Shown one piece after another: positions 15,524 to 38,051 of a DNA stretch of 64,000 bases; position 1 is the first letter of the stretch; each line of letters starts with the position of its first letter. A program made the translations under genes and the position numbers. A model generated the notes under the pieces. The model saw nothing but the letters and a program-made list of their open reading frames with translations. It was not told where the DNA came from and searched no databases. This stretch comes from Thermococcus pacificus (GTDB lineage Archaea > Methanobacteriota_B > Thermococci > Thermococcales > Thermococcaceae): contig NZ_CP015102.1 of NCBI RefSeq assembly GCF_002214485.1, positions 620,001 through 684,000 on the forward strand, given 5' to 3'.

Positions 15524-15529
15524 GCTTTC

Positions 15530-16261: not shown

Positions 16262-16266
16262 GGCCC

Positions 16267-16605: not shown

Positions 16606-16617
16606 ATCGGTCACCCC

Positions 16618-16640: not shown

Positions 16641-16696
16641 TTTGGTGGGGAGAAGTATTTAAAGCTTTCCCGCTGAGAGTGCATAGGTGCGAGACA

Positions 16697-17725: not shown

Positions 17726-17735
17726 TTTCCACCAT

Positions 17736-17993: not shown

Positions 17994-17994
17994 A

Positions 17995-19636: not shown

Positions 19637-19702
19637 GTCTCTTCCCCCCGGAAAGGTTAATGCACAAAAAATATAAATAGTTTTCTGAATTTTAAAGCCA
19701 CT

Positions 19703-22732: not shown

Positions 22733-22734
22733 CA

Positions 22735-23376: not shown

Positions 23377-23433
23377 GGGAGAAAAGTAGTCTTTGAAAGA
23401 TTTAAACTTTGCCTGAAAAATGGGAACGGGGCT

Positions 23434-24545
23434 TCAGATTTTCTCGAAGCCTATGTCTTCCATCTTGACGTGCGTGAAGACGTTGGTTCCCTGTGCTATG
23501 AAGACGCCTTTCGCCTCTATGGGCACCGGGAGGTTGGCTGCCAATGTTGCCTCTCCCTGTCCGGTGGCGTCACCGAGCTGGTAGGTCCACTTGACGTTTG
23601 ATACCTTGAAGTCGTGTCCGCCAAGGGTCATGGTCCCGTCCGGGTCTATCTCGTAGTTGTACTGGTACCCCATGGCCCCCACGCTGGCCTGAGTGGCCTG
23701 GTATAGGTTCTCGTCCTCAAGGGCCACCCAGAAACCGAAGTTATAGAAGCCCCACCAGCCCATGTAGATGTCCTGTATGTCCGCAATCTGCGAGAGCACG
23801 TTGATGTCCCCCTCTTGGTAGGGGGTAACACTCATTTCTCCAACCGCGCCGGGGTTGTAAAACTCGACCTCTGTGTCTCCGTACTTCATCCAGACCCAAC
23901 GGTATCGCCGGCTCCTCCGTACAGTGATGCGTAGAGCGTCAGGAAATCGAGTGAGGGGAACAGGAAGAAGGTATCTGTGTCTTCTGTCCTCTCTTTAACC
24001 CAGAGGCGGTACTCAAAGGTGTCCGTCATGTTCTCGGAGTTTATCGGAATTATCTTTCCGTAATACTCGTAGACATCGAATTCGCCGAGGTCGACCTTCT
24101 CCTGCTCGCCGGTCTCCATGTTTATCTGGTTCCCGTAGACGTGGATTTTTGTGGGGCCCCGCCTCTTCTCGACCTCGTACTCGTAAATCTGACTGCCCTC
24201 CTCGGTTCTTACCCGGAGTTTGTACTTGACGTAGGTGATCATATACTGCTGGTCGTCTATATCAACTGGATTGTACGCGTCCCATGGATCGGCCCACGAG
24301 GCGTATTCGCCCGTTCCTGTCTCAGTTTCGGTGGTGGTGCCCGTTGAGGTTCCGGTGCCTGTCCCTCCAGGGCTTTCAGTCGTACCGTATCCACCGCTGC
24401 TGGTTCCGCCCTGGCTGGTGGTCTGAGAACCGCCGCTGGGCTGTTCCGAGGTGGTGGTCCCTCCCCCGCCTCCGAGACATCCGTTAACGCTTACAATCAC
24501 CAAAAACACGAGAAAAACTGCAAAAGCAGCCCTGAATCTTTTCAT
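23434..24545 (-). pseudogene. Lipoprotein gene split by an apparent one-base frameshift
   Basis: Two overlapping frames are seen. The first (24545-23886, 219 residues) has a lipoprotein signal (FLVFLVIVSVNGC), a long Gly/Ser/Thr-rich linker and a beta-rich domain ending DTVGSG. The second (23889-23434, 151 residues) begins MKYGDTEVEFYNPG, lacks a signal peptide and has no good ribosome-binding site (GGGTCTGG). Reading through GTTGGGTCTGGATGAAG, adding one base at the G run (23895-23897) joins them as V-x-VWMKYGDTEVEF, giving one protein of about 370 residues. It is either a real frameshift, a sequencing error in a homopolymer, or genuine ATGA-coupled genes. The function is unknown; it is a surface lipoprotein. 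Confidence 0.6.
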
Positions 24546-24594
24546 ACTCTCTCAACTCCTTCCTTTCTCTTACTCAAATATGATCTGTGAGTAT

Positions 24595-25770
24595 TTAAAC
24601 GTTAAGTGTCAGCCCTTTGACATAAAGCCAAAAACTGCCAAATTCACCTGAGACAAGGAGAACCCTACCGTCGTCGCTCAGCCTAACGTAGCCAAGTGAC
24701 TCCCCCGGAACCTTCACGCTGAAGACCTCGTGGAAGTCCCGGAGGGAGTAGCAGTGAATCACCCCGCCTTTGACTGTAACCACGAAGTTCTCGTTGGCGA
24801 AGCGCATGAATCCCTCGAGGCTCTTCACCTCGGTCATGTTCCAGGTCAGAACCCTCGTGCCCTCGAACTCGTCGGTCCAGAGGAGGTACTTCTCCGTCGC
24901 CCGCACGCTCGGTATCAGAAGGGAGTACCAGCGGAGGCAGTATTGGCCGCTCCGGGCGAGAACATTCCCCTCCGCGTCTAGGACCCTCAGCTCTCCCTCG
25001 AACTGTCCGATTATTCTGTCCCCGTAGAGAACCACCATGTGGCTGTCGGGGCTGAGCGTCATGACTCTGCTCCCGTTCTTGAATATCAGGACGTCCCCCG
25101 CTTCCCCTCCGCTGCCGACGGCAACGAGCCCGGTGTCAGAGACATCCACCATGTTGTAGCCCCCGGCGTTCTCTATCGTGGTCTTCACCCCGTCGCAGTA
25201 CAGCTCCTGCGTGGTTGCACCGGTGGTTATCAGGTAGCAGAGGTGGTTCCCACTTGGGGAGATGGCTATAGAGTCAGCAACAGCGCCGGCCCAGCCGTGT
25301 CTCTCCTCACCGGTCTGTCCTTCCCAGGAGTAAATCCTTACCCCGGCGAACTCAGCGTAATCGGCCAGGACGTGGGCTTCCCTGTCCCTCACGACCACCC
25401 CAACTACTACCGGCTCGACGGCATCGTCCCCTTGGAGGTCGAAGGTAACACTCTCGCCGCTGGGCTTCACGAGGTACAGATCGGCGTTGTTCCAGTCTAT
25501 AACCGCCGAAAGGCTCCCATCCGGGCTCATGTCCAGGAGGGGAATGCCCGAGGTCGAAACGTTCCAGACGAGCTCCATCTCCCAGCTCTGCGGGGCCTGG
25601 CTCGTCGTGGTCTCGGACGGCTTTGAGGTCATTGGCAGGGAACTCGTCGGCGCGGTGGTTGAGCTGGTTGGGGAGGTCTTCGAGCTCTCTTCGCCTCCAT
25701 CGAGACAGCCGCTCGCTGCGACCATCCCGAGGAGTGTCAATATCAGCATCACGGTTACAACTTTCTTCAT
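24595..25770 (-). CDS. Secreted lipoprotein with beta-propeller-like domain
   Basis: The protein has 391 residues. The signal ends in a lipobox (MVAASGC, Cys22) and is followed by a Ser/Thr-rich linker (about 25-60). The rest has repeated segments of the form MSPDGSLSAVID, ISPSGNHLCYL, VDVSDTGLVAVGS and LSDDGRVLLVSG spaced by 40-60 residues, as in WD40/PQQ-like propellers. It is anchored outside the membrane. It lies downstream of nothing obvious and upstream of the other lipoprotein gene on the same strand, 49 bases apart. No enzymatic motif is seen. Confidence 0.75.
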   Translation of the reverse strand: MKKVVTVMLILTLLGMVAASGCLDGGEESSKTSPTSSTTAPTSSLPMTSKPSETTTSQAPQSWEMELVWNVSTSGIPLLDMSPDGSLSAVIDWNNADLYLVKPSGESVTFDLQGDDAVEPVVVGVVVRDREAHVLADYAEFAGVRIYSWEGQTGEERHGWAGAVADSIAISPSGNHLCYLITTGATTQELYCDGVKTTIENAGGYNMVDVSDTGLVAVGSGGEAGDVLIFKNGSRVMTLSPDSHMVVLYGDRIIGQFEGELRVLDAEGNVLARSGQYCLRWYSLLIPSVRATEKYLLWTDEFEGTRVLTWNMTEVKSLEGFMRFANENFVVTVKGGVIHCYSLRDFHEVFSVKVPGESLGYVRLSDDGRVLLVSGEFGSFWLYVKGLTLNV

Positions 25771-25917
25771 GCAATCCCCTCCGGACCCGCAAGAAACGAA
25801 AGCGGCCTACAGGATGGGTTTATGACATTACTATCTCATTTGAATATTAAAGATTTTCCAAAGCTTCAACCGCGCCTGTAGTCATTCGAAAGGCGTCTCA
25901 TGCTAAATCTGGGATAA

Positions 25918-26565
25918 TTACGCTTCCCCTAGAAGTTCAACGAACGATTGGGGCCTTTTTCCTAGCCTTTGGGCTATGTATTGCGCCAGGTCGAAAACAT
26001 GGGGGACTTTCGAGATTACCCCAACGTCGGCCGTCGCTACGGTCTCAAAACCCTTCAGCTCGAAGTCCGGGTTTTTCACCAGGTGAACTTCGCTCTGGAG
26101 GCCGAACCTTTTTAGAGCCTCCTCAGTGAGAGCCTTCACCACGCCGCTCTTCGGGACGTTCCTCCCGTAGAAGAAGACGGCCTTTCTAACTTCGAGCCCG
26201 CTCACTGCCCCGGCGATTTTTTCCAGAAGTTCCTCCGTATTCTCGTTGAGCTTATACCTTCCCTGGTACTTTAAATCCCTAACCAGGCCGTCCTCGCAGA
26301 TTATCCCCTTTCCCTCCATGATGGACTCCAAGGTTATCAGAACGTTGAAGCCGTCTATGGCGAGGGTTCTGCCAGCGAGCTCTTCCAGTTTTAGAAGCTT
26401 TCTCCTGACCTCCTCAACCCAAGAATCCGGAAAGACGCACCTCGCGAGAAGGTGCCTTTCCTCAAGGGTCAGGCGGTAGTGGTTGGCCACGAAATCAAGG
26501 GCATACTTCTTCCTGTAGCCCCTGTTCAGGAGGTACTTGAGGTCGCGGTAGGCTTCCTCCAGCAT
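25918..26565 (-). CDS. DUF434 family protein
   Basis: The protein has 215 residues. The N-terminal helical part LEEAYRDLKYLLNRGYRKKYALDFVANHYRLTLEERHLLARCVF and the central LAIDGFNVLITLESIMEGK, ICEDGLVRDLKY are the DUF434 (and following DUF5616) signature. The middle has PIN/NYN-like features (an acidic IDGFN motif at the strand end, FFYGRNVPKSG, a late TADVGVIS), so a nuclease-like fold is possible. The function is unknown. It is 21 bases downstream of the HD phosphohydrolase gene on the same strand. Confidence 0.75.
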   Translation of the reverse strand: MLEEAYRDLKYLLNRGYRKKYALDFVANHYRLTLEERHLLARCVFPDSWVEEVRRKLLKLEELAGRTLAIDGFNVLITLESIMEGKGIICEDGLVRDLKYQGRYKLNENTEELLEKIAGAVSGLEVRKAVFFYGRNVPKSGVVKALTEEALKRFGLQSEVHLVKNPDFELKGFETVATADVGVISKVPHVFDLAQYIAQRLGKRPQSFVELLGEA

Positions 26566-26586
26566 GGATAAAGAAACGGTGGGAGG

Positions 26587-27363
26587 TTAAATAACCTTCT
26601 CCACCACCTCTCCATCTGTGCCCGTGTGTATCCTGAGCCTGACCTTTCCGCTGAGGAGGGAGCTCTTGACCTTCTTCGTCAGTATCTCGTCAACCTGAAA
26701 GATTCCTGCGGGATGCTTCATCCATATCTCGATGAGTATCGGCTGTTCCTCGTCCCCTTCCGTTATTTTCACTCTCTCGATGGCCAGTGCCGAAACCGCG
26801 TGGATGTCCACCTTGTCCTTCTTGTGGACGAGCCTGCTCCGCCCCTCCTCCATGTCGCAGCCGTCCGCTATGGTCACGAGCGAGCCCTCGATGGTGGTGC
26901 ACGGGACTGCCTCGTCGTGGGTGTAGATGGCGTTGAGGGTGAGGGCTTTGAGAAGGAGGGGGTCTCCGTCCTCGAACTCGCCCACGAGCTTCTCTATTAT
27001 GGGCTCCGCGAGGAACGCGCTGAACCCGTAGTGGTTTATCCTGTGTATCATGTTGCCGATGTCGTGAAAGAGGGCTCCAAAGGCCACTATGAACTTGCTC
27101 CAGCGGAGGGGCTTTCCGAGCTTTTCTGCCGTCGTCTGGATGCCGAACTTTTTGATGATACTGAGGAGCTCCAAAGCCCTTCTCGTCGTCAGAAGGACGT
27201 GCACGGGGCCGTGGTCGTTGAAGCCGTAGACGTTGAGGACTATGTAGTTGGTGGTGTCGAAGTAGTAGTGGTACTCTCTGAAGGTTCTCTCGTACATGCT
27301 GAAAAGTTCATCGTCGCCCATCAGCTCCCTTATCTCCTTGAGGAGTTCTTCCTCCGTGTACAT
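26587..27363 (-). CDS. HD-domain metal-dependent phosphohydrolase
   Basis: The protein has 258 residues. HD motifs are visible: an early NDHGPVHVLLTTRRALEL, the central FGALFHDIGNMIHRINHYGF (His-Asp pair) and later IADGCDMEEGRSRL (Asp). These ligate metals in nucleotide or dNTP/cyclic-nucleotide phosphohydrolases. The C-terminal beta-rich part (EEQPILIEIWMKHPAGIFQV) is typical of the archaeal version. The substrate is unknown. GGTGAGAG precedes the ATG at 27363. It is followed by the DUF434 gene. Confidence 0.8.
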   Translation of the reverse strand: MYTEEELLKEIRELMGDDELFSMYERTFREYHYYFDTTNYIVLNVYGFNDHGPVHVLLTTRRALELLSIIKKFGIQTTAEKLGKPLRWSKFIVAFGALFHDIGNMIHRINHYGFSAFLAEPIIEKLVGEFEDGDPLLLKALTLNAIYTHDEAVPCTTIEGSLVTIADGCDMEEGRSRLVHKKDKVDIHAVSALAIERVKITEGDEEQPILIEIWMKHPAGIFQVDEILTKKVKSSLLSGKVRLRIHTGTDGEVVEKVI

Positions 27364-27462
27364 TCTCTCACCCGGAAGCTAAACGGTGGGGAGAATTTAA
27401 GGGTTTTGAACGGAAGCCGGTGAAAATGACAGGGTGTTTTTTGGCGTTTTTAACTTTCTCTT

Positions 27463-27876
27463 TCACTCCAGCATTCCCTCAAGCTCAAGGATCTTCTTCG
27501 AGCGGAGGTAAACTACGGGAACCCCTCTCTCGCGGAGGCGTCTCTTCAGCCCCTTGTCATTGGTGCAGACTATGACGCGCTCGTTTTTCACCGCGAAGTC
27601 GAAAATCTGGTCGTCTATGGGCCTCTTTCCAAACTCTCCTATATCAACCCTCTCAAAGCGCTCGGCCAGCTTCTTCGCCATCCTTATGGCCATCAGGTCC
27701 TTCCCCTTTGATTTCCTCTCTATGACCTCCAGCTCCTGAAGGACGACGTTCGGGATGAGGATTCTGAAGCGGACGTCGAGAATTCTGTTGAGCTCACCTA
27801 TGATGTCAACGCCGAACTGCCCCGGCACGAGGAGGAAGTTGGTGTCTGGAATGACCAGCCACTCTTTCTTTCCCAT
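27463..27876 (-). CDS. PIN-domain nuclease of the FCF1/UPF0129 type
   Basis: The protein has 137 residues from the ATG at 27876; the upstream extension only reads into the aIF2-gamma gene. Four conserved acidic sites of the PIN active centre are visible: D in VIPDTNFLL, E in LQELEVIERK, D in PIDDQIFDFA and D in CTNDKGLKRRLRERGV. The family resembles eukaryotic Fcf1/Utp24 (pre-rRNA cleavage) rather than VapC toxins. No antitoxin gene is adjacent. It lies in the aIF2-gamma transcript, which supports a translation or RNA-processing role. Confidence 0.8.
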   Translation of the reverse strand: MGKKEWLVIPDTNFLLVPGQFGVDIIGELNRILDVRFRILIPNVVLQELEVIERKSKGKDLMAIRMAKKLAERFERVDIGEFGKRPIDDQIFDFAVKNERVIVCTNDKGLKRRLRERGVPVVYLRSKKILELEGMLE

Positions 27877-27908
27877 GGGAACCACCAACGGGAGAAAAGG
27901 GGAGGGAA

Positions 27909-29141
27909 TCACTCCCTGATGAAGCCGTAGCCTATGAGGCGCCACCTGCTTCCGACCTGCCTGCTTATGGCAACGCGGTCTCCAGGCTCGGCACAGACAG
28001 GTATCTGGAGCTTCAGCTCAACGGTGTCCTTTCCGAGGCCCGTGACGAGCCCCATGGTTCTTGCAGTTCCAACGTTGAGCAGGAGAACCTCGCGCCTCTT
28101 TATCGGCTCGACCTTGAGTTCCTCCTCGGTTCCGACGACGCGGTCGAGGAGGTGAACCTCGAGGGTTATGTCGTCCCACACCGGCGGGAGCTTCCCTGGC
28201 TTTCCGACGACGTTTCCCGCCATGAGGTCGCCCTTGGTTAGGAACGGGTCGAGCTTGGTTCCGACACCGACGAGACCGCCTGGATAGGCTTCATCCACGA
28301 ACTTCCCTCCGGCCTGAAGCGATACTATCTCCGTTGTTATCGGCTCGTAGCGTATCCTGCCGTGCTCCTCATAGGGGACACCGGGCCTTATCTCGATCTC
28401 ATCCCCGACTTTGAGCTTGCCCTGGACTATGGAACCTCCTATGACTCCTCCAACGAGCTTCTCGGGAGGAGTTCCCGGCTTGTTAACGTCGAAGCTCCTC
28501 AGGACGAGCATCTTGGGCGGTTTCCTGAGGTCGTGCTTCGGTGTCGGAATGAATTCCTCAATCGCGGCGAGGAGAACGTCAACGTTTGCCCCGTGAAGTG
28601 CTGAAATCGGGATTATCGGAGCGTTCTCGGCGACGGTGCCCTTAACGAACTCCTTTACCTCTTCGTAGCGCTTCATAACGGTCTCCCTGTCGACGAGCTC
28701 TATCTTGTTGAGGGCTATGACGATGTTCTTGTTCCCTACTATCTGGAGGGCCATGAGATGCTCCCTTGTCTGGGGCATTATGCCCTCGTTGGCGGCTATG
28801 ACGAGAACCGCGCCGTCCATGAGGGAAGCGCCGGCAAGCATCGTTGTCATGAGCGCCTCGTGACCAGGGGCGTCTATGAATGAAACCCTTCTCTCGAATT
28901 TGGTTTCATGACCGCAGTACGGGCAGACCGGGGAGCTGGAGTACCTGCCGCAGTTCGGGCACTTTCTTATCTCGGCATCGGCGAAGCCTATCTTAATGGT
29001 AATTCCTCTCCTCAGCTCTTCGCTGTGCGTGTCAGTCCAGATTCCAGTTAAAGCCTTTGTAAGAGTTGTTTTGCCGTGATCAACGTGACCGACCATTCCG
29101 ATGTTAACTTCAGCCTGTCTAAACTCCTTCTTCTTTGCCAT
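27909..29141 (-). CDS. eif2g: Translation initiation factor aIF2 subunit gamma
   Basis: The protein has 410 residues. The EF-Tu-like GTPase domain has G1 [10 protein letters not shown]3 DAPGHE, and G4 NKIE. A zinc knuckle of four Cys ([17 protein letters not shown]) sits in the G domain as in archaeal aIF2-gamma. Two beta-barrel domains follow. It carries initiator Met-tRNA to the small subunit as part of the alpha-beta-gamma heterotrimer. S6e is encoded upstream and a PIN protein downstream on the same strand. Confidence 0.97.
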
Positions 29142-29255
29142 ATTCTCTCACCCCTAACTTTAGAGCGTGGGGACGTTTATTAAGGTTACTTTAGGAGGGA
29201 CTTTTTGAGAATAAATGAACCCAGCAGAAAAGCGGAAGTTAAGAAGGGGAGAAGC

Positions 29256-29633
29256 TCAGAAGATGAGCTTCATGTTGACCTGAACGATCTCGGGGCTGAT
29301 GGTGTTGCCCCTGACGGTCTTCTTCCTCCTCTCACCGCGCTCCTTGGGCCTGAAGCCAGGGCCGCGGGAGACGAGGATCTTGACCCTCCTCGGGCCGTGA
29401 ACGTCGGGCCTCATGGCGAAGCCGTCCTTGTCGGTTCCGCCGGTTATCCTGAGCTTCGCGTCGCCCGGAATCTCCTCGCCGAATATCTCGGTGAGGTTGA
29501 GTCCGAGCTCGCTCGCAGGAACTTCATCGCCTATGCGCTTTCCTATGAGCTTCTCAGCCTCTTCTCCGCTTATCTCTACCTGCTTGGCTATGCCGTTCTT
29601 CGGGTTGGATATAACAAGCTTGAAAGTGGCCAT
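29256..29633 (-). CDS. rps6e: Small-subunit ribosomal protein eS6
   Basis: The protein has 125 residues, the usual archaeal length (eukaryotic eS6 is longer). The N-terminus [20 protein letters not shown], the middle [20 protein letters not shown] and [21 protein letters not shown], and the basic end are diagnostic. The gene is upstream of aIF2-gamma with a 114-base gap, and divergent from Sec61-beta. Confidence 0.97.
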
Positions 29634-29780
29634 TTCCTCCCACCTCCTGTGTCATTAGCGGGATTCATTGGGTTAGCCCCTTATCCACCCCCTGGTGTGG
29701 CTCGGCCTTTAAAAAGTTTCCCCTTCCCATCACAACTTTTTTATACTCACACGAGAGCCTTATGTAAAGGGGTGAGAGAA

Positions 29781-29951
29781 ATGGCAAAGGAAAAGACGAC
29801 CCTGCCACCGACGGGAGCTGGATTGATGAGGTTCTTCGACGAGGACACGAAGGCAATAAAGATCGGGCCTAAGGGAGTCATCGCCCTGACGCTTATACTG
29901 GTTGCCTTTGAGATACTCCTCCACACCTTTGGTCCCCAGATCTTCGGCTAA
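29781..29951 (+). CDS. secG: Preprotein translocase Sec61-beta subunit (SecG in archaea)
   Basis: The protein has 56 residues from the ATG at 29781 with GGGGTGAG upstream; a longer open frame overlapping S6e is rejected. The N-terminus is short and charged (MAKEKTTLPPTGAGLMRFFD), followed by a single C-terminal membrane helix (about 32-50). The TLPPTGAGLMRFFDEDT segment is the archaeal Sec61-beta signature. It is the small tail-anchored subunit of the SecYE translocon. A TATA element (TTTTATACT) lies at about 29739-29748. It is convergent with the coiled-coil gene, overlapping by 4 bases. Confidence 0.93.
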   Translation: MAKEKTTLPPTGAGLMRFFDEDTKAIKIGPKGVIALTLILVAFEILLHTFGPQIFG

Positions 29952-30604
29952 ATGAAGCTCGTCTTCTTTAATCCCCTTGCGTTCAGCTCTTCGTTTATTA
30001 TGCTCCTTACGACTTCTTCCAGCTGGTTCTGAAGGAGCCTGTCCACATCCTCTTTTATCTTGTCTATGTCGTGTCTGAGTCCCTCGAGGAGCCTTATGTA
30101 CTCCTTGGCCATATCCAGTTGTCCCTCCTGCCTGACCAGCTGCTCCTTGAGGTGCTCAAAGTCGTCCTTCATGACCTGGAACTTTCTGAGTTCGCGCTGA
30201 AGCTCATCAACCTGCTTCGTGAGGGAGTAGTTCTCCGCCTTGAGCTTCTCTATCATCTTGTCCTTCTCCTCAAGCTCCCTCACTAAGGTGTTGTACTCCT
30301 CCGCAACCTGGTTGAGCCGCTCGATCTCCCTCAGCGGGGGGACCTTGCCGTTACCGAGGATTATGACGTCCGGGCCAACGTTCACTATGTCGCTCGGCTT
30401 TATCTTCAGCTTCTTCTCGCTTGAGAACATGCTCTGACCCTTTCCGAGGTTCTCAACCTCCCTCATCTTCAGGATGAAGTAGAACTGGTCCCCCTCGACC
30501 TCGACGTTGATGTCCGTCACGTAGCCCAGTATCTTTCCTTCGGTGAGAGAGATTACGAACTTGTTAATGAGCTGGTTCGCCTTGGCTTCACTAGCTTCAC
30601 TCAT
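29948..30604 (-). CDS. PRC-barrel plus coiled-coil protein, CdvA-like architecture
   Basis: The protein has 218 residues. The N-terminal 90 residues form a PRC-barrel-like beta domain (GKILGYVTDINVEVEGDQFY, then LKIKPSDIVNVGPDVIILG). A long coiled coil (about 95-205) follows, with heptads of Leu and charged residues, and a short tail ends LKKTSFI. This barrel plus coiled-coil order is that of crenarchaeal CdvA, a membrane-associated cell-division scaffold; related PRC-barrel proteins take part in euryarchaeal division. Thermococcales divide with FtsZ, so the role is open. It is monocistronic, divergent from engB, and convergent with Sec61-beta. Confidence 0.65.
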   Translation of the reverse strand: MSEASEAKANQLINKFVISLTEGKILGYVTDINVEVEGDQFYFILKMREVENLGKGQSMFSSEKKLKIKPSDIVNVGPDVIILGNGKVPPLREIERLNQVAEEYNTLVRELEEKDKMIEKLKAENYSLTKQVDELQRELRKFQVMKDDFEHLKEQLVRQEGQLDMAKEYIRLLEGLRHDIDKIKEDVDRLLQNQLEEVVRSIINEELNARGLKKTSFI

Positions 30605-30698
30605 AGAATATCACCCGGCCAATTTTGTTTGGAAGGATACTTAACCTTTCCGCCAATGCTTATAAAGCAACCACCGCCATCAACCTACGGTGAGAGAC

Positions 30699-31313
30699 AT
30701 GATAATCTTCGCGGGACGTTCAAACGTTGGTAAGAGTACGCTCATATTCCGTTTAACCGGAAAGTGGGTCAAGCGCGGAAAGCGGCCCGGAGTGACGAGA
30801 AAACCCACCGAGGTGAACTGGAGGGGGAAGATAATAGTCGACATGCCGGGCTTCGGCTTCATGAGCGGTGTTCCGAAGAGGGTTCAGGAGAAAGTCAAAG
30901 ATGAGATAGTGCGCTTCATAGAGGAGAAAGCGGACGAGATAGAGCTTGCCGTTCTTGTGGTGGACGGCAAAGCCGCGCCGGAGATAATCGAGCGCTGGGA
31001 GAAGCGCGGGGAGATACCCATCGACGTCGAGTTCTATCAGTTCCTCCGGGAGCTCAACATACCGACGATAGTAGCCGTGAACAAGCTTGACAAGATAAAG
31101 AACCTCCAGAGGACGATAAACTTCCTGGCGGAGAAGTTTGGGGTTCCGCCTTCCGAAATCAACGAGACCTTCGTGCCGATATCTGCAAAGTTCGGGAAGA
31201 ACCTGGATAAACTCAGGCTGACGATGGAGAAGAAGCTGAAGGAGGGCAGAGAAAAGCCCTCAGAGAACCTCAAGGACGATGTGGGTGATGGTCTCCTTGA
31301 CTCCGTCGAGTGA
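30699..31313 (+). CDS. engB: EngB/YsxC-family GTPase
   Basis: The protein has 204 residues from the ATG at 30699 after GGTGAG. GTPase motifs: G1 GRSNVGKST, G3 DMPGFGF, G4 NKLDK and G5 ISAK. EngB proteins assist large-subunit ribosome assembly in bacteria; the archaeal role is presumed similar. TATA AGCTTATAA-like sequence lies about 40 bases upstream (TTATAAAG near 30660). The 3' end overlaps the convergent Lrp-like gene by 54 bases, an unusually long tail-to-tail overlap. Confidence 0.9.
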   Translation: MIIFAGRSNVGKSTLIFRLTGKWVKRGKRPGVTRKPTEVNWRGKIIVDMPGFGFMSGVPKRVQEKVKDEIVRFIEEKADEIELAVLVVDGKAAPEIIERWEKRGEIPIDVEFYQFLRELNIPTIVAVNKLDKIKNLQRTINFLAEKFGVPPSEINETFVPISAKFGKNLDKLRLTMEKKLKEGREKPSENLKDDVGDGLLDSVE

Positions 31314-31724
31314 AGATATCTCCTCGAGTATCTCGTCCAGCCTCGTTTTGTCCGCTTCGATGATCAGATCGATGTCGCCGGTGACGCGGTATATCTTCTT
31401 TATCTTGAGGTTCTTTATGGCCTCGTAGACGTTCCTCCTCTTGGTGGGCTCTATCCTGACGAAAACGAATACATCACCCTTCTTTTCGCCAAGCAGGTCA
31501 AGGGCCTTGTCGGTTAGGTCTATGAAGCCCCTGCCCGTTCTTATGTATCCAAGTTCTTTGAGAACCTTGAGGTGGTTGCTGAGGGCCTGTCTGGTTATCC
31601 CGAGCTCCTCCGCGAGCTCGTCCTGGGTCTTTTCGACGGTGTGCACCTCTATGGTCTTGCCGTCCTCGTAGAACTTTCTCAGAAGCCTGAGCTGCCTGGG
31701 GGTGAGTGCAGTTTTCTCCTCCAT
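31260..31724 (-). CDS. Lrp/AsnC-like transcriptional regulator
   Basis: The protein has 154 residues. The N-terminal HTH (TQDELAEELGITRQALSNHLKVLKELGYIRTG) is of the ArsR/MarR style. The C-terminal domain VFVFVRIEPTKRRNVYEAIK, KIYRVTGDIDLIIEADKTRLDEIL is a RAM-like alpha/beta ligand domain of the Lrp family. The start is ATG at 31724, preceded by GGAGG. The promoter has TATA (TTTAATAAATG) near 31758-31768. It is convergent with engB. Ligand and targets are unknown; amino acid sensing is typical of the family. Confidence 0.8.
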   Translation of the reverse strand: MEEKTALTPRQLRLLRKFYEDGKTIEVHTVEKTQDELAEELGITRQALSNHLKVLKELGYIRTGRGFIDLTDKALDLLGEKKGDVFVFVRIEPTKRRNVYEAIKNLKIKKIYRVTGDIDLIIEADKTRLDEILEEISSLDGVKETITHIVLEVL

Positions 31725-31939
31725 TTTTAAACCTCCTTTGCATGATTAGCCTTTATGCATTTATTAAACCAACGATTTTTCAGGCCAATGTCAACTTTTG
31801 ATGGCCCAATATTAGTGGCGTAGGGGGAATCTTATAAGTTTTTTCATCCTCCATTCCACTTCCAAGATAGGGCCCGGTTCAGCATGTTCTGTGGGCCTTA
31901 GCAGTTAGATTTTTAATTTCTTCCTCAAAGATTTCCTCC
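31725..31939. promoter_or_regulatory. Divergent promoter region, Lrp-like gene and clp1
   Basis: The region holds a TATA box for the Lrp-like gene (near 31758-31768, minus strand) and one for clp1 (ATTTTTAATTT near 31909-31919, plus strand), so clp1 has a very short leader. GCATGATTAGCCTTTATGCAT contains an inverted repeat (TGCAT/ATGCA) close to the Lrp-like start that could be an autoregulatory site. No gene is seen. Confidence 0.45.
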
Positions 31940-33007
31940 ATGAACAAAGCGACCTACACCACGGACGTTCCAGGGGACAGGCTCTCCCTGCTGGAAACAC
32001 TCTCTTCCCGCCAGAGACCGACCAAAGTAATGCTCATCGGCGGAACGGACAGCGGAAAGACAACCCTCCTCACGTTCCTCGCCAACGGCCTCATTGAGAG
32101 AGGACTGAGGGTCGCCATAGTGGACAGCGATGTGGGTCAGAAGGGAGTACTCCCCCCCGCGGCTATCAGCCTTGCCTTCCCTGAAGGGCCTTTCTCCAAC
32201 CCCAGTGAGCTGAGGGGAGCGGCTCACTACTTCATAGGCACAACCTCCCCCGGGCAGTACGCTGGAGAGATGGCCGTTGGCGTAAAGAGACTCGTTGACA
32301 TCGCCATCAAATCAGCAGACATCGTCCTGATAGATACTACCGGCTTCGTTACAGGCCCGGGTGCCGAGATGAAGCGCCTCAAGGCTGAACTCGTGAGGCC
32401 CGATATCGTGGTCTTCCTGGAGAAAGGGGGTGAACTCGAACATCTGCGGAACCTTCTCGCGCCTTACGGCGAAATACTCCGGCTCCCGGTCAGTCCGAAG
32501 GTCAGGGCTTACTCCAGAGAGGAGCGCAGGGAGATCCGGGGGAAAAAGTGGCGGGCGTACTTCGCGGCCTCCACTCCTGTGGATGTCGATCTGAGGGAGG
32601 TCATTCCAGGGGGCACGTCCCTCTTCCAGGGCAGACCTTTGACCCCTGAAGAAGTGGAGCTCCTTTCTTCTGCATTCGGCTGGCTTGTCCTGGCCGGCTG
32701 GAAGGGAGGGCGATACACCGTCGTCAAATCCGACGTTGAGTCCTCCCCAAGGCACTACGACCGCTTTGCCCTCCATGCCGTTGATTTTGAAAAGCTGAGC
32801 AACCTGCTTGTGGGCTTCATTGATGGGGATGGCCTTTGCCTTGGCGTAGGTATACTGAAGTGGATAAGCTTCAGCGCGAGAAAGGCGCAGGTTTTAACTC
32901 CCCTCTCCCCCGAGGAGGTGAGCAAAGCCGTGGAACTCCGCTTCGGCCGCATAAGGGTCCTTGAAAACGGCGAGGAGCTGGGCCTCCTCCGGAGGGATGA
33001 GCTGTAG
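31940..33007 (+). CDS. clp1: Polynucleotide 5'-hydroxyl kinase, Clp1 family
   Basis: The protein has 355 residues, near the length of the characterised P. horikoshii Clp1 homologue. Walker A GGTDSGKTT (about residues 34-42), Walker B/lid motifs VAIVDSDVGQKGVLPP and VLIDTTGFV, and a C-terminal beta-rich domain (VGFIDGDGLCLGVGILKWIS) are present. It phosphorylates 5'-OH ends of RNA (and DNA) with ATP, probably in tRNA splicing or RNA repair. A transcript without a long leader is expected from the TATA near 31914. It is followed 44 bases later by the UbiA gene. Confidence 0.9.
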   Translation: MNKATYTTDVPGDRLSLLETLSSRQRPTKVMLIGGTDSGKTTLLTFLANGLIERGLRVAIVDSDVGQKGVLPPAAISLAFPEGPFSNPSELRGAAHYFIGTTSPGQYAGEMAVGVKRLVDIAIKSADIVLIDTTGFVTGPGAEMKRLKAELVRPDIVVFLEKGGELEHLRNLLAPYGEILRLPVSPKVRAYSREERREIRGKKWRAYFAASTPVDVDLREVIPGGTSLFQGRPLTPEEVELLSSAFGWLVLAGWKGGRYTVVKSDVESSPRHYDRFALHAVDFEKLSNLLVGFIDGDGLCLGVGILKWISFSARKAQVLTPLSPEEVSKAVELRFGRIRVLENGEELGLLRRDEL

Positions 33008-33051
33008 CAAAGATTTTTAAGCCAATTCTCTAACTGAATTAGGTGACCCTA

Positions 33052-33882
33052 ATGGAATTCAAGGCCTTCATCGAGATAACCAGGCCCCACAACTGCCTCC
33101 TCGCAGGGATAGTCGGGGTTCTCGGCTCCATAGTGGCCGTCGGCGACATCCCTGCCCCACGGACAGCGCTCCTGGTCTTTTTGGTGGTCGTCCTCGGTTG
33201 CGCCGGAGGAAACACCATCAACGACTACTTCGACTACGAGATAGACAAGATCAACCGGCCGGAGAGGCCCCTCCCGAGAGGTGCAATGAGCAGAAGGACA
33301 GCCCTCTACTATTCGCTGGCCCTGTTTGCCGTTGGCCTTTCTCTGGCGGCTCTGATAAACATCTACGCCTTCACCATTGCGTTGGTGGCTTACGTCATGA
33401 TGTTCCTCTACGCCTGGAAGCTCAAACCCCTCCCCTTCGTGGGGAACCTCACCGTGGCGGCTCTGACGGCGGCGACGCCGCTCTACGGTGCCGTTGCGGT
33501 TGAACACCTCGGTCTTGCTGGTTATCTTGCGGTATGCGCCTTCCTCGTCAACGTCGCGAGGGAGGTCATCAAGGACATCGAGGACGTGGAGGGGGACGTC
33601 GCCAAGGGCGCCAGGACGCTCCCTATACTCTGGGGAAATAAGAAAGCCGCCCGCGTGGGGGCTCTCTTTGCGGTGCTCACCGTTGCGGCCTCTTTCCTCC
33701 CGGTTAAAGCCGGGGTCGGGCTCGGCTACTATGCCATGGTGCCGGTCGATTTGATAATCCTCTACGCTGCGTACCTGATACTCCGCTCCCAGGACAGGGA
33801 GACCGCTCACAGGTCGCAGAAGTTGCTCAAAATCAGCATATTCCTTGCGGTAATGGCTTTCCTGGTTGCGGCACTGGTCTAA
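33052..33882 (+). CDS. Digeranylgeranylglyceryl phosphate synthase (UbiA prenyltransferase)
   Basis: The protein has 276 residues from the ATG at 33052 (AGGTGA upstream). It has eight or nine membrane segments. The two Asp-rich motifs are intact: NDYFDYEIDKINRPERPLPRG near 55-75 and REVIKDIEDVEGDVAKG near 165-181. It attaches the second geranylgeranyl chain to geranylgeranylglyceryl phosphate, a core step of archaeal ether lipid synthesis, in the membrane. It starts with ITRPHNC as in other archaeal DGGGP synthases. A small conserved gene follows 17 bases later. Confidence 0.9.
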   Translation: MEFKAFIEITRPHNCLLAGIVGVLGSIVAVGDIPAPRTALLVFLVVVLGCAGGNTINDYFDYEIDKINRPERPLPRGAMSRRTALYYSLALFAVGLSLAALINIYAFTIALVAYVMMFLYAWKLKPLPFVGNLTVAALTAATPLYGAVAVEHLGLAGYLAVCAFLVNVAREVIKDIEDVEGDVAKGARTLPILWGNKKAARVGALFAVLTVAASFLPVKAGVGLGYYAMVPVDLIILYAAYLILRSQDRETAHRSQKLLKISIFLAVMAFLVAALV

Positions 33883-33899
33883 GAAAGGAGGTGATGCTC

Positions 33900-34280
33900 A
33901 TGGAGTTTAAGGAGGAGATAGGTAAGGCCCTCGAGGGGGACGGCCTCTGGACGGTCGTCACGTTCAAGACGCCCCATGGTCCGGGGATTACACTGGAAAA
34001 GCTCGCCGAGGCCGCTGAGAGCGCCGGCTGGAGGATAACCTTCCGTGCCAACTGGTGGACCGCTGACATACCCTACGGTCTGGCCAGGCTGGACCTGAGA
34101 AAGAACGGCAGGGAGAAGATACTCCTGGGGAAGTGGATACTCGGCAGCAAGTGCGAGCTGATAAGCCTGGAGAACATGTCCCTCGAGAGGGGACGCGATG
34201 AGTTCTTCCGCATGGTGGACAGCATAACCTCCACTCTGATCCACGACCCCGTCATAAGGACGATGAGGGAGCAGTACTGA
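33900..34280 (+). CDS. Conserved small protein downstream of DGGGP synthase
   Basis: The protein has 126 residues from the ATG at 33900. The ribosome-binding site AAGGAGGTGAT directly upstream decides this start over the GTG and ATG before it. An alpha/beta protein, it begins MEFKEEIGKALEGDGLWTVV and contains GWRITFRANWWTADIPYGLARLDLR and ILGSKCELISLENMSLERG. No family was recognised. It probably shares the UbiA transcript, which ends at the T run that follows. Confidence 0.65.
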   Translation: MEFKEEIGKALEGDGLWTVVTFKTPHGPGITLEKLAEAAESAGWRITFRANWWTADIPYGLARLDLRKNGREKILLGKWILGSKCELISLENMSLERGRDEFFRMVDSITSTLIHDPVIRTMREQY

Positions 34281-34288
34281 CTCCCCGG

Positions 34289-34301
34289 CTTTTTTGTTTT
34301 A
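34289..34301 (+). terminator. Oligo-T terminator of the clp1-UbiA operon
   Basis: GCTTTTTTGTTTTAA, right after the stop codon at 34280, is a T6-G-T4 run typical of Thermococcales termination. The convergent RPA operon ends at 34354. Confidence 0.55.
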
Positions 34302-34353
34302 ACCGTCAGTTTTCAGGTCTAATTCTTACGGGTGGGTAGAAAAGTAGAAAAGC

Positions 34354-35169
34354 TCAGAGCGGCTCGTAGTAGCCGATCTCCGGCTCGTATATCTCGCCCT
34401 CCGCCAGGAGCTGGGTTATGGCTTCCTCGATGAGCTCCTCACTGAAGTCCTTGGAGAGCTTCTTGACTATGAACTTGTGTGAGAGCGCCTTTTCCTTTTC
34501 CTTGAGCAGCTCTAAGACGGCATTCTTGGCCTTCTCAAGCTCCGGGTTCGTGGGGGCCTCCTCCTCTTCCGAAATCTCCTCCGAAATCTCTTCCTCAAAG
34601 AGAGCCTCCTCCGCGCTCCTCTGCTCCAGCATCATGGTGTAGAGTTCGTCTATGGTGAGGAGCATATCCTCACTTACCCCTTTGTTCTTGGCTATGACCT
34701 TGGCCTTAGCGGTGACGCCGTACTTGTCGTATATCTCGAACGCTATCTTGGCCTTTTTAGCGTGCTCGACTTTTTCCTTGAGGGTCTCGAAGCGGTGGAG
34801 TATCCACATGTTCGGCTCCACCTTGGATATGCCCTCAACGAGAATCTGCTTGTCGTCGCGCCACTCACTGATCTTCCCGATTATCTGGACGAGGTCGCCC
34901 TTCTTCACGAGTCTGATGAAGCGCGTGTCCTCGCGGAAGCCGAGCACCCAGATGGTTCCGGTTCCATCGTCAATCTGGAACTTGCCGTAGGTCTCATCCT
35001 CGCTTATCGCCGGCTCCCTAACCACCGTCGCGACCACCTTGACGCGGTAGACCTTCCTTGCGTCCCTGGTTATCAGGTAGTTCGGCTCAAAGTCGCCCTC
35101 GCTCTTGACGAAGTAACCGTTAATGATGTCCATGATGTAGACCCTGCTCGCTGGGAGGCGCTTCTTCAT
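34354..35169 (-). CDS. rpa32: Replication protein A subunit RPA32
   Basis: The protein has 271 residues. The N-terminal OB fold (about 40-135: RKVYRVKVVATVVREPAISE, YGKFQIDDGTGTIWVLGF, GDLVQIIGKISEWRDDKQIL) is that of RPA32. A long acidic linker (about 190-215, EEEISEEISEEEEAP) and a C-terminal winged helix (about 215-271) follow, as in eukaryotic RPA32. With RPA41 and RPA14 it makes the heterotrimeric single-strand DNA-binding complex described in Pyrococcus. The start overlaps the RPA14 stop by 4 bases. Confidence 0.93.
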   Translation of the reverse strand: MKKRLPASRVYIMDIINGYFVKSEGDFEPNYLITRDARKVYRVKVVATVVREPAISEDETYGKFQIDDGTGTIWVLGFREDTRFIRLVKKGDLVQIIGKISEWRDDKQILVEGISKVEPNMWILHRFETLKEKVEHAKKAKIAFEIYDKYGVTAKAKVIAKNKGVSEDMLLTIDELYTMMLEQRSAEEALFEEEISEEISEEEEAPTNPELEKAKNAVLELLKEKEKALSHKFIVKKLSKDFSEELIEEAITQLLAEGEIYEPEIGYYEPL

Positions 35170-35543
35170 AGCTCCTCACCTCCGAAGAACTCAATGATGC
35201 TTTCCACCTTCGGGAGAACCTTCCTTTCAAGCTCCCTTACCTCCTCTAGGGCGTCGAGGTCTGCGTTGCTGAAGTCCTGTATGACCTCGCCGTAGATGTG
35301 CGTGCCCTCCTCGTTCCTGATGACCCTTCCAATGACCCTGACGATCTGACCGTTCTCCGGTAAAACGTTCTCCTCGCTCTCGACGAGTATGACCCCGGTA
35401 CCGTCGTCGAGCCAGAAGGTGTAGTCCATCTTATCAACCTTGAATGCCTTGCCTATGAGGGAAACACGCGTGTCGTCTTCCCGTATCTCGCCTATCTTCC
35501 TCTCGACGGCCGGCTTTCTTCTTCTAAACTTAATCTCTTCCAT
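35166..35543 (-). CDS. rpa14: Replication protein A subunit RPA14
   Basis: The protein has 125 residues from the ATG at 35543, which lies two bases past the RPA41 stop codon. A single OB fold (DDTRVSLIGKAFKVDKMDYTFWLDDGTGVILVESEENVLPENGQIVRVIGRVIRNE) makes up most of the protein, followed by a C-terminal helix (ALEEVRELERKVLPKVESIIEFF) that mediates trimer assembly. It is the middle gene of the operon and overlaps RPA32. Confidence 0.93.
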   Translation of the reverse strand: MEEIKFRRRKPAVERKIGEIREDDTRVSLIGKAFKVDKMDYTFWLDDGTGVILVESEENVLPENGQIVRVIGRVIRNEEGTHIYGEVIQDFSNADLDALEEVRELERKVLPKVESIIEFFGGEEL

Positions 35544-35544
35544 T

Positions 35545-36618
35545 TCACTCACCACCCTCGAGCTCGGCTATGGCCTTCTTCAGCTCGGCCCTAACCCTGG
35601 CTATCTCCCTCTTGGGGTCAACTTCGTCCCAGCCAAAGGCCTTGAGTATCAGACCCAGGAACTTGTCGTCGACAACGTTGCCCCTGACGATTATCTCCTT
35701 GCCGAGAAGGTAGTAGTACTCCTCCTCCGCAAGCTTCCTTCCGGCTTCCCTGAGGGTTAATCCCCCCTCAACGAGTTCCTTGAGCTTCTCGGCTATCTCT
35801 TCTGGCTCTCTGCCGAGCAGGTCAGCGGCGTCATCTCCAAAGAGGGTCGTCCTGATGTAGCCCGTCGAGTCGTCGAGGCCGAAGTCGATTATAACCATCG
35901 TAACCGGCTTCACCTCGCCGTGCTCCGGGCATATCCAGGTCTCCGTGGCCGGGTCGTAGTCGACCTTCCTCCTGCACTGGGGGCAGGCGTCGTAAGCCGT
36001 GACGCGGTAGAGCCTCGCTATCGTGCCCCTAACTTCGACGAACTTCTCGCCGCCCATAAGCTCGCCTATCTTCCTTCTCTGGTAGTTGTAGCTCCTTATC
36101 TCCTCGAGGGGGGGTATCTCCTCGACGCGCGGGTCTTCTGGGTTGGGTATTATCCTCGTCCTGAAGTTGGCGTGCAGCTCTATTCCGTTCCTTCCCTCCC
36201 TAACTGTGGGGTCGATTATCTTGATAACATCTCCCGGCTTGAGCTCCTCGTAGTACTTGCCCACCAGGTTGTCCCAGAGGACGAGCCTTGTCCTGCCCGT
36301 TCCGTCGTAGATTATGAGGTTGGCCACCCTGCCGGTAGAGCCGTCGCGCCTCTGGTACTCCCTTGGCGGGTACTTCCTCATTATCCTCGCGACTACGTTG
36401 ACCCCGGTCATCCCGGGGACGAGGTCGGCTATGTGGAGAAGCTCTTCCTTTCCTTCAAGGTTAACACCAAGTTCTTCCGCGAGCATGACTGCAGCGGCGT
36501 GCTCCGAGATGCCCTCACGCTCTGCAATCTCGGCTATCCTTTCCTCTATTTCATCCTCCGAGAGGCCCTTCTGCCTCTTGATCATCTCGATAACCTGCTC
36601 CTTTGTCAGCACTCCCAT
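35545..36618 (-). CDS. rpa41: Replication protein A large subunit RPA41
   Basis: The protein has 357 residues from the ATG at 36618 after GGTGAG. An N-terminal helical part (LTKEQVIEMIKRQKGLSEDE) is followed by an OB fold (about 70-170) and a zinc-binding OB fold with CPQCRRKVDYDPATETWICPEHG (C-x2-C...C-x2-H). It binds single-stranded DNA in replication, repair and recombination. The operon order is RPA41, RPA14, RPA32. Confidence 0.94.
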   Translation of the reverse strand: MGVLTKEQVIEMIKRQKGLSEDEIEERIAEIAEREGISEHAAAVMLAEELGVNLEGKEELLHIADLVPGMTGVNVVARIMRKYPPREYQRRDGSTGRVANLIIYDGTGRTRLVLWDNLVGKYYEELKPGDVIKIIDPTVREGRNGIELHANFRTRIIPNPEDPRVEEIPPLEEIRSYNYQRRKIGELMGGEKFVEVRGTIARLYRVTAYDACPQCRRKVDYDPATETWICPEHGEVKPVTMVIIDFGLDDSTGYIRTTLFGDDAADLLGREPEEIAEKLKELVEGGLTLREAGRKLAEEEYYYLLGKEIIVRGNVVDDKFLGLILKAFGWDEVDPKREIARVRAELKKAIAELEGGE

Positions 36619-36740
36619 AACACTCACCTTAATGGTAATTGGGGCTTCGGGTATTTAAACCTTTCTCCAGAGAGAGCGTTTTCAAAAATAAAGCTGTTCT
36701 TCCCGGCATAGGGAGAAATGGGGAAGTAATAGTCCAAAAT

Positions 36741-37370
36741 TCACTCCTCGGCCGGACTGATTGCTTCAGTGCTTTCCACTTCCTTCATCCCTTCGCCCTC
36801 AGGAGCCTCCTCGTCTTCCCCTTTACCCTCAAGCTTCGATATCAGGTCGCTGTACTCGGCGTGAACGACCCTCTTGAAGGCCTCCTTTATGATGTTGGGG
36901 TCGTTCTCTGGGAAGCCGTAGAGTTCGGCGAACTTCGATGTCGTCCCGAGGAGCTTCGTCCTCTCGTATGGCTCCGCATAGATAAGGCCCATCTCAAGGA
37001 GCTTCCTTATGTGCTCGTAGGCCTGGCTTCCGCGCAGCTTTACGACCTTGCTCTGCTCTATCGGCTGTAGGTAGGCTATCAGTGCGAGCGTCTTGAGCTC
37101 ACCGGTTCTCAGATCTGGCCTCGGCATGAGGTGGACGACACGCTGGCTGTACTCCTGCTTGACCTGCATGACGTACTTGTCCCCGAGAACCTTGACAACC
37201 TCTATCGCGCTCTTTCTCTCGGCGTACTCTGCAGCTATCAGTTCGATGAGTTTTTCAAGGTAGTCGAGGGACCTTATTCCAAGGGCCCTTGAAAGCTCTT
37301 TGATGCTCAACGGCCTTCCAGAAACGAACAGAGCGGCCTCGACGAGGGCTTTATCCTCAAGCAGTCCCAT
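36741..37370 (-). CDS. scpB: Segregation and condensation protein B (ScpB)
   Basis: The protein has 209 residues from the ATG at 37370 (GAGGTGA upstream). Two winged-helix domains are evident: the first MGLLEDKALVEAALFVSGRP and LSRALGIRSLDYLEKLIELI, the second LALIAYLQPIEQSKVVKLRG through AYEHIRKLLEMGLIYAEPYER. An acidic tail ends the protein. It is the accessory subunit of SMC condensin, binding ScpA. A TATA element (GGTTATAGTAG, minus strand, near 37405-37415) fits. It is divergent from the 5S rRNA gene. Confidence 0.9.
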   Translation of the reverse strand: MGLLEDKALVEAALFVSGRPLSIKELSRALGIRSLDYLEKLIELIAAEYAERKSAIEVVKVLGDKYVMQVKQEYSQRVVHLMPRPDLRTGELKTLALIAYLQPIEQSKVVKLRGSQAYEHIRKLLEMGLIYAEPYERTKLLGTTSKFAELYGFPENDPNIIKEAFKRVVHAEYSDLISKLEGKGEDEEAPEGEGMKEVESTEAISPAEE

Positions 37371-37434
37371 TATTATCACCTCTCCATGAAACCTCCGATG
37401 AAACTACTATAACCTTTTCCATGTCCGACCGCAA

Positions 37435-37444
37435 AATTTATAAA
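37435..37444 (+). promoter_or_regulatory. TATA box of the 5S rRNA-tRNA-Asp unit
   Basis: AATTTATAAA lies about 25-30 bases before the 5S rRNA 5' end near 37469, as expected for a stable RNA promoter. The same motif AATTTATAAA serves tRNA-Gln at 5911-5920. Confidence 0.7.
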
Positions 37445-37468
37445 CCCGTCTAGAAAGGTTGGTACCGG

Positions 37469-37593
37469 TACGGCGGTCATAGCGGCGGGGTCACACCCGG
37501 TCTCGTTTCGACCCCGGAAGTTAAGCCCGCCAGCGATCCCGGGTGTACTGCCCTCCGAGAGGGGGCGGGAAACCGGGGACGCCGCCGGCCACT
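37469..37593 (+). rRNA. 5S ribosomal RNA
   Basis: The sequence begins TACGGCGGTCATAGCGGCGG and ends GACGCCGCCGGCCAC, with the conserved GGAAGTTAAGCCCGCCAGCG block in the middle. The ends pair (GGCGGTC... with GCCGCC). It is a solitary 5S gene, not linked to 16S/23S, as usual in Thermococcales. tRNA-Asp starts 6 bases downstream. The exact ends are estimated within a few bases. Confidence 0.96.
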
Positions 37594-37598
37594 CACAT

Positions 37599-37676
37599 GC
37601 CCGGGTGGTGTAGCCAGGCCCATCATACGGGACTGTCACTCCCGTGACTCGGGTTCAAATCCCGACCCGGGCGCCA
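37599..37676 (+). tRNA. tRNA-Asp (anticodon GTC)
   Basis: The cloverleaf has acceptor stem GCCCGGG/CCCGGGC, discriminator G and an encoded CCA (37674-37676). The anticodon stem CGGGA/TCCCG carries loop CTGTCAC, giving GTC. The T-loop TTCAAAT is intact. It is co-transcribed with 5S rRNA. The repeat element copy B begins 5 bases after the CCA. Confidence 0.97.
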
Positions 37677-37681
37677 TTCTG

Positions 37682-37973
37682 ACAAACTTTACTTTCGTGA
37701 AGTTTGATTAAGGTTGCATGTCGTGTTTATGGAATCCCTGTTTTGAGGGGGTTGCTCTTCCACTTGCTGGTTCTGCAGTGTTTCACTGTGGGAATAACGC
37801 CCTTCGGGCGTTAATTGGAAGTTGAAACTTGTTTTAGCTGGTGCAAAGCGTTGACGGGAAGTGCGTGCCTTCTGAAAGATGGTTCTGAAACGTGCACGCC
37901 AGTATTATTCACTCAGAGGGAGAATTTTTTGGTCAAACTTTTTCCAGAAGCTTGTTAGTGAAGTTTGTTGTTA
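37682..37973 (+). repeat. Dispersed tRNA-flanking repeat element, short copy B
   Basis: The element lies between the convergent tRNA-Asp (CCA at 37674-37676) and tRNA-Lys (CCA at 37974-37976) and fills the gap completely. It starts with the hairpin CAAACTTTAC TTTC GTGAAGTTTG (37683-37706) and ends, read from tRNA-Lys, with ACAAACTTCAC. Its order of blocks matches copy A at 6397-6963 (minus strand). It also contains AACGCCC TTC GGGCGTT (about 37794-37810), a stable small hairpin absent from A. No open frame longer than background is shared with A. It is noncoding, MITE-like or a structured tRNA trailer. Confidence 0.75.
37683..37706 (+). repeat. Terminal hairpin of copy B next to tRNA-Asp
   Basis: CAAACTTTAC, four-base loop TTTC, GTGAAGTTTG. 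Compared with CAAACTTCGC/CTGC/GCGAAGTTTG of copy A, pair 9 changes from G-C to A-T with both sides altered, and pair 8 from C-G to T-G. The structure is kept while the sequence drifts. Confidence 0.7.
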
Positions 37974-38051
37974 TGGCGGGCCGGACGGGATTCGAACCCG
38001 CGGCCACGGGGTTAAAAGCCCCGCGCTCTAACCAGGCTGAGCTACCGGCCC
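37974..38051 (-). tRNA. tRNA-Lys (anticodon TTT)
   Basis: The minus-strand cloverleaf has acceptor stem GGGCCGG/CCGGCCC, discriminator G and an encoded CCA (37974-37976). The anticodon stem CGGGG/CCCCG carries loop CTTTTAA, giving TTT. The T-loop TTCGAAT is intact and there is no intron. The TATA box CTTATAAAAT lies at 38078-38087. Its 3' end abuts repeat copy B. Confidence 0.97.

Follow-up and report, generated by a model that had tools for sequence, protein, structure and literature searches.

The window analysed here is a 64,000-nt stretch of the chromosome of Thermococcus pacificus (NZ_CP015102.1, positions 620,001 to 684,000), in which the convergent genes for tRNA-Asp(gtc) and tRNA-Lys(ttt) are separated by a spacer of 297 bp, measured from CCA to CCA. 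This spacer is a diverged copy (copy 2) of a non-coding fold-back repeat, another member of which (copy 1) lies behind tRNA-Pro(cgg) in the same window. Its GC content is 43%, against 54% for the window. Read from tRNA-Asp the spacer begins CCA-TTCTG-ACAAACTTTAC, and read from tRNA-Lys it begins CCA-TAACA-ACAAACTTCAC. The sequence ACAAACTT is met at both ends, a few bases past the CCA in either reading, as originally described. The + strand of the whole copy folds back on itself (z=-3.4 against shuffles).

The original prediction, made from the letters of the window, held that a second copy of one element fills the gap between the two tRNAs, and the likeness of the copies bears this out. They align in three collinear blocks (blastn E=7e-13, 1e-4 and 1e-3) with a local score of 86, the maximum among 200 dinucleotide shuffles being 31. 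The end of copy 1 differs from that of copy 2, with similar units continuing to about position 6260. The further claim that both termini of a single element sit at tRNA 3' ends holds at this locus because tRNA-Lys points towards tRNA-Asp here; it fails in several relatives, in which tRNA-Lys points away. The features of both copies and their anchors are collected in Table 1.

Table 1. Repeat copies, their parts and their flanking tRNA genes, in positions of the window
Feature	Position	Strand	Remarks
Copy 2, fold-back repeat occupying the complete Asp-Lys spacer	37677..37973		297 bp, 43% GC
Leader TTCTGA (family form TTCTAA)	37677..37682	+	immediately after the tRNA-Asp CCA
Terminal A-type hairpin CAAACTTTAC-TTTC-GTGAAGTTTG, then ATTAAGGTT	37683..37706	+	
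Central GC-rich palindrome TAACGCCCTTCGGGCGTTA	37795..37813		
Inner block GCTGGTGCAAAGCGTTGACGGGA	37837..37859	+	common to copy 1 and C-type ends
D-type hairpin CAAACTTTTTCCAGAAGCTTG	37934..37954		close to the Lys end
Lys-side terminus	37958..37973	-	from tRNA-Lys: CCA-TAACAACAAACTTCAC
tRNA-Asp(gtc)	37599..37676	+	left anchor
tRNA-Lys(ttt)	37974..38051	-	right anchor; with its promoter, the block seen in either orientation among relatives
Copy 1, longer chain of like units behind tRNA-Pro(cgg)	6260..6963	-	
tRNA-Pro(cgg)	6966..7043	-	anchor of copy 1
30.7-kb segment between copies 1 and 2	6966..37676		collinear in five relatives, inverted in G069 and G077

Both copies belong to a family that was followed by reading the 3' flanks of all 44 tRNA genes in the source genome (G000; 1,785,673 bp, one contig); at the scale of the whole genome the analysis covered the results of searches and the regions surrounding tRNAs. 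A repeat unit starts with an optional leader, TTCTAACA, and continues with a hairpin of ~24 nt, for which there are three interchangeable types: A (CAAACTTCGC..GCGAAGTTTG-ATCAAGG), B (GAAACTTTGC..GCAAAGTTTC-ATCAAAG) and C (CAGCCCTTTGC..GCAAAGCGCTG-GCGGAAA). Many different tRNAs have the leader TTCTAA behind their CCA. It is accordingly part of the repeat, whose edge coincides with the CCA or lies only a few bases away. The units are ~200-330 bp long, arranged in chains, and are mosaics of each other; they are extragenic palindromes in inverted mosaic arrays, as in repetitive extragenic palindromic sequences (REP) and bacterial interspersed mosaic elements (BIME). Several units carry similar hairpins at both ends, but the types differ and the far ends are irregular. 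The Asp and Cys copies are 95% alike over 145 bp and unrelated beyond, so that halves are shared and not whole units.

The association with tRNA 3' ends is general. A family hairpin lies 1-9 nt past the CCA in 23 of the 44 flanks (27 by a looser test), and several of the remaining tRNAs stand in tandem with a next tRNA that bears the repeat. By the looser test, applied to three genomes, the hairpin is present in 71 of 132 3' flanks, in 8 of 132 5' flanks (reading away) and at 1 of 132 control positions. Covariance models of the hairpin place about 20 of the 25 clusters in the T. pacificus genome at tRNAs, and the other five at 251.6, 275.6, 728, 1084 and 1665 kb. The majority of best matches in relatives likewise fall 2-9 nt past a CCA. 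Of 37 congeneric genomes, 35 have a match to the hairpin model; among 24 other genomes there is none.

Copy 1 lies to the left of tRNA-Pro(cgg) and copy 2 to the right of tRNA-Asp, forming inverted repeats around the 30.7-kb segment. Gene order across this segment is as in the window in G009, G017, G026, G062 and G066. In G069 and G077 it is reversed between Pro(cgg) and ScpB/5S, and Pro(cgg) stands beside tRNA-Lys and a regulator gene; exactly this segment is inverted in the two genomes. The Pro-Lys spacer of G069 and the Asp-Lys spacer of G009 match in their Lys-side halves but not in their tRNA-side halves, which places the crossover inside the repeat. This crossover is read from one junction, the contig ending at the 5S gene that adjoins the expected tRNA-Asp. 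The gene beside tRNA-Gln is joined directly to the regulator in G034, yet another rearrangement between these intervals. Inverted copies therefore bound a segment found in two orientations, with a crossover inside the repeat in G069 and also in a 176-bp segment of T. nautili (Cossu et al. 2017, PMC5495485; all statements on that paper refer to the part of it consulted).

In T. nautili, an inversion that arose in culture between two tRNA-Gly genes occurred inside this perfectly conserved 176-bp segment, and the integrase of pTN3 (Int-pTN3) recombined the segment in vitro (PMC5495485). A primer printed in that paper locates a tRNA-Gly(ccc) locus in G035. A second G035 tRNA-Gly locus shares the 176 bp with the first, with one mismatch that PMC5495485 gives as a corrected sequencing error, and the position of tRNA-Leu in G035 is consistent with the published T. 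nautili coordinate. By these matches G035 is probably T. nautili. Its 176-bp segment consists of 41 bp of tRNA and 135 bp of repeat, hairpin included (77% repeat). One member of the family has thus been shown to recombine both in vivo and in vitro, unrecognised as a repeat in the published account. T. pacificus itself holds identical stretches of 179 bp (Leu tag/Leu gag), 151 bp (Leu tag/Val cac) and 105 bp (Asp/Cys) between different tRNA flanks, with the tRNAs on opposite strands in all three pairs; identical segments of 104 bp have been reported as sufficient for the pTN3 integrase.

A broader comparison used translated searches with the neighbours of 44 tRNA loci (~2 kb on each side) in G000, G012 and G062, tandem tRNAs being counted once and tRNA-Met excluded; the three pairs share genomes. 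Of 64 resolved comparisons of element-bearing tRNAs, 27 showed the tRNA flipped in place or with a different 3' neighbour and 37 showed it intact; for element-free tRNAs, 1 of 27 showed such a change and 26 were intact. The Fisher p of 1.4e-4 is a guide only, the comparisons not being fully independent. For the G000/G062 pair alone, 13 bearing tRNAs were rearranged and 10 intact, and the figures for element-free tRNAs were 0 and 8. Neighbours changed 27 times on the 3' side of the tRNA and 3 times on the 5' side. Genes or small blocks found flipped in place between these genomes include Arg(tcg), Arg(tct), Glu(ttc), Cys/Ser(gct), Arg(gcg)/Gly(gcc) and Lys(ttt).

The same comparison pairs Leu(caa) with Thr(ggt) and Gly(tcc) with Leu(tag) between G062 and G012; the flank of Gly(tcc) in G062 also matches that of Leu(tag) in G000. 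Leu/Thr and Leu/Gly inversions have been described between T. onnurineus and T. sp. 4557 (Cossu et al. 2017, PMC5495485), and by this match of endpoints we infer that G062 and G012 are those two strains. Both published inversions fall on the repeats described here. Cloned tRNA-Leu/tRNA-Thr sequences had shown no inversion, and the authors judged their similarity insufficient (PMC5495485).

The Asp-Lys site has itself turned over within the genus. The locus of the regulator gene adjoining tRNA-Lys was taken from 30 genomes, and the Asp-Lys spacer, where present, opens with the family hairpin, one related pair excepted. The members of that pair, G063 and G068, have a repeat-less spacer of 106 bp, so that the comparison of syntenic intervals proposed with the original prediction does yield an empty site. 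One kind of unit occupies 216-219 bp in G017 and G026, another kind 358 bp in G066, and longer chains are present in other relatives. G013 resembles G011 minus one unit between two hairpins. The orientation of tRNA-Lys varies, towards tRNA-Asp in one set of genomes and away from it in another. Its promoter edge (GGGGCAAAGCTTATAAAATC after ..AAAGTTTC) is identical in both orientations, which shows that inversion affected the tRNA-Lys block as a whole.

Based on these observations, it is very probable that this is a dispersed, non-coding fold-back repeat of Thermococcus, anchored at tRNA 3' ends, that supplies homology for chromosome inversions. Near-identical copies stand behind different tRNAs on both strands and so form inverted repeats, which would serve as breakpoints both for chromosome inversions and for flips of tRNA blocks. 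The recombinase may be the host homologous-recombination system or a pTN3-type tyrosine integrase of low sequence specificity. In the T. pacificus genome there is one XerA-like recombinase, encoded by an intact gene at 1692745, and a second tyrosine integrase persists as a remnant with an internal stop (G000:C1:1585753-1586067); the enzyme could accordingly be the host system, or an integrase on past visits. The weakest step is the spread of the repeat, which might proceed by non-reciprocal exchange, with the conserved 3' half of tRNA genes as its anchor. Such exchange would explain the position of the repeat without a dedicated transposase. It is our leading guess, itself close to a toss-up, and is favoured over transposition because half-units are shared, target duplications are not seen and no Y1 transposase is encoded in T. 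pacificus. More tentatively, copying from tRNA to tRNA may keep renewing the inverted homology, in which case tRNAs would be standing hinges of the chromosome and single tRNAs would flip as cassettes.

Several points weigh against this interpretation. Breakpoints could cluster here merely because the spacers are long and gene-free and inversions are tolerated in them, and some of the homology comes from the tRNA genes themselves. Element-bearing tRNAs are intact in the 37 comparisons noted above. The in-place flip of a single tRNA requires an upstream breakpoint too, and a repeat upstream that could explain the flip accompanies just 7 of the 30 loci flipped in this way. Since the two G035 tRNA-Gly loci share a strand, the inversion seen in culture presupposes a previous, overlapping one; the authors proposed such earlier events for several of their cases (PMC5495485). 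The single XerA-like recombinase and the broken state of the second integrase belong here as well, and the strain names of G012, G035 and G062 are attributions by inference.

The most serious alternative, though a doubtful one, is that the repeat spreads by transposition and that inversions are a side effect of its high copy number. The original prediction had suggested an insertion targeting tRNA flanks. The tRNA 3'-end association has proved real and general, and targeted transposition is unproven. Hairpin termini and fold-back units would suit a transposable element, as would the occurrence of one site in filled and empty states, the TTCTAACA leader exactly at the CCA behind many tRNAs, and one genome in which the Asp and Lys sites carry the same unit. 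However, the target duplications that had been looked for at the syntenic interval were not seen, either among filled sites (compared by eye) or against the element-free spacer. The irregular far ends and the sharing of halves, as between Asp and Cys, also argue against transposition. A Y1 (RAYT-like) transposase (PF01797) is absent from T. pacificus and present in only 5 of 25 congeners, and no coding copy was met in the loci read, a search that was not exhaustive. The IS200/605-REP route was rejected for the lack of a Y1 enzyme in T. pacificus. Casposon-type insertion was rejected too, since no duplicated tRNA 3' end, Cas1 gene or integrase gene occurs in the spacers read.

Known mobile repeats resemble the family in part. 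REP and BIME of enterobacteria, with their RAYT transposases, are short extragenic palindromes in inverted pairs and mosaics, found in many copies at gene 3' ends. The Thermococcus repeat shares the palindromic, extragenic, inverted, mosaic and multi-copy character; it differs in its anchoring at tRNA 3' ends, in its sequence and in having no such transposase in the T. pacificus genome. Like miniature inverted-repeat transposable elements (MITEs) and other non-autonomous fold-back elements, it is non-coding, palindromic and multi-copy, with filled and empty sites, but half-units are exchanged, target-site duplications were not seen and no parent element was met. Casposon-derived MITEs and tRNA-targeting integrative elements insert beside tRNA 3' ends; unlike these, the repeat comes without a duplicated tRNA end and without a Cas1 or integrase gene inside.

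It is unlikely that the tRNA spacers are passive hot spots, long and gene-free enough to tolerate breakpoints, in which tRNA genes and not repeats recombine. tRNA genes are known integrase targets and have been proposed as inversion endpoints (PMC5495485). However, 77% of the 176-bp laboratory substrate is repeat, the G069 crossover lies inside the repeat, and rearrangement of element-free tRNAs is almost nil. The published tRNA-bounded inversions and the pTN3 integrase involve the same Leu/Thr and Leu/Gly breakpoints and the same T. nautili tRNA-Gly pair. The substrates are presented in PMC5495485 as paralogous gene pairs, whereas the homology found here is mostly that of a dispersed repeat behind different tRNAs.

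More improbable still is a structured RNA, that is, a read-through transcript acting as tRNA 3' trailer or terminator and conserved for RNA folding; the original prediction had offered an RNA trailer shared by two convergent transcripts as its other option. The position straight after the CCA, a conserved hairpin with compensatory changes, and the better-than-shuffled fold of the copy 2 + strand would all fit an RNA. In the terminal hairpin 98% of cells are paired, and 3 of 10 pairs show changes on both sides, which indicates that pairing has been kept. However, across 65 distinct terminal hairpins the mismatches are strand-symmetric (10 G-U, 9 A-C), and the loops occur in both orientations (CGCCTTCGCG and CGCGAAGGCG); this is what is expected of a DNA palindrome under inversion or conversion. 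The longer arms have an excess of G-U (396) over A-C (259) in a strand rich in T and G. This excess was set aside as a signal of RNA because base composition predicts a similar ratio. In addition, the repeat is lacking at about half of the tRNAs, whole units are swapped between species, the hairpin is not followed by a T run, and no Rfam family matches. The sRkB/sRkC repeats, which are described as specific to Pyrococcus abyssi, transcribed and binding L7Ae (PMC3124441), are likewise dispersed intergenic repeats in Thermococcales, but unlike the Thermococcus repeat they are not described there as linked to tRNAs.

An ordinary ancestral spacer that merely diverged, the outcome under which the original prediction would have been abandoned, has hardly any chance of being correct: orthologous Asp-site spacers are common to G017/G026 and to G063/G068, but other relatives have unrelated units or mosaics at this site or lack a unit altogether, and the units found there turn up again behind other tRNAs.

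A few further observations concern related sequences. The main site of the repeat away from tRNAs (728 kb; G000:C1:727500-728440) precedes an RNA-methyltransferase/L3 ribosomal protein operon, and its junction TTTTTTGCAAAG-CAAACTTC is kept in several relatives (L255, L257, L259, L263, L264, L280). A second repeat family, AACGAAAGACAAGGGGGCTCCGCCCCCTTATCTCTCTGTACTCTCAAACCCCC, also begins directly after tRNA CCAs and is chained to the first; it is found at G000:C1:1267519 onward (after tRNA-Val tac), at L121 and L131, and at Thr(ggt) of G012. A similar hairpin, ACAAACTTTCTTTCACAAAGAAAGTTTGATCAAAGAAAC, occurs in many ANME-1/Methanophagales genomes (L135-L214), mostly off tRNAs, with two examples after tRNA-Arg. 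Homology with the matches to the hairpin pattern (ACAAACTTTCTTTCACAAAGAAAGTTTGATCAAAG) in that group is not claimed, because most of these lie away from tRNAs and none of the 24 genomes outside the genus has a match to model R1. Elsewhere in the window, positions 57867-57919 (-) hold the C/D box guide RNA sR46 (Rfam RF01130).

No description of a repeat behind Thermococcus tRNA genes was found in the open-access literature searched, which is not proof of absence. Palindromic dispersed repeats are known as a kind, and the tRNA-bounded inversions are published; what is new here is the repeat family, the anchoring of its members at half of the tRNA 3' ends and the finding that it makes up most of the endpoint homology. 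The role that the evidence points to, that of inversion breakpoints, lies outside both options of the original prediction. The cause of scrambled Thermococcus chromosomes despite rare transposons has been described as elusive (PMC5495485). A repeat common to different tRNA 3' flanks gives endpoints of the tRNA-Leu/tRNA-Thr type their missing homology and helps to explain this scrambling. In addition, it offers an example of a repeat linked to tRNA ends with no visible transposase, and it predicts the sites of the next inversions.
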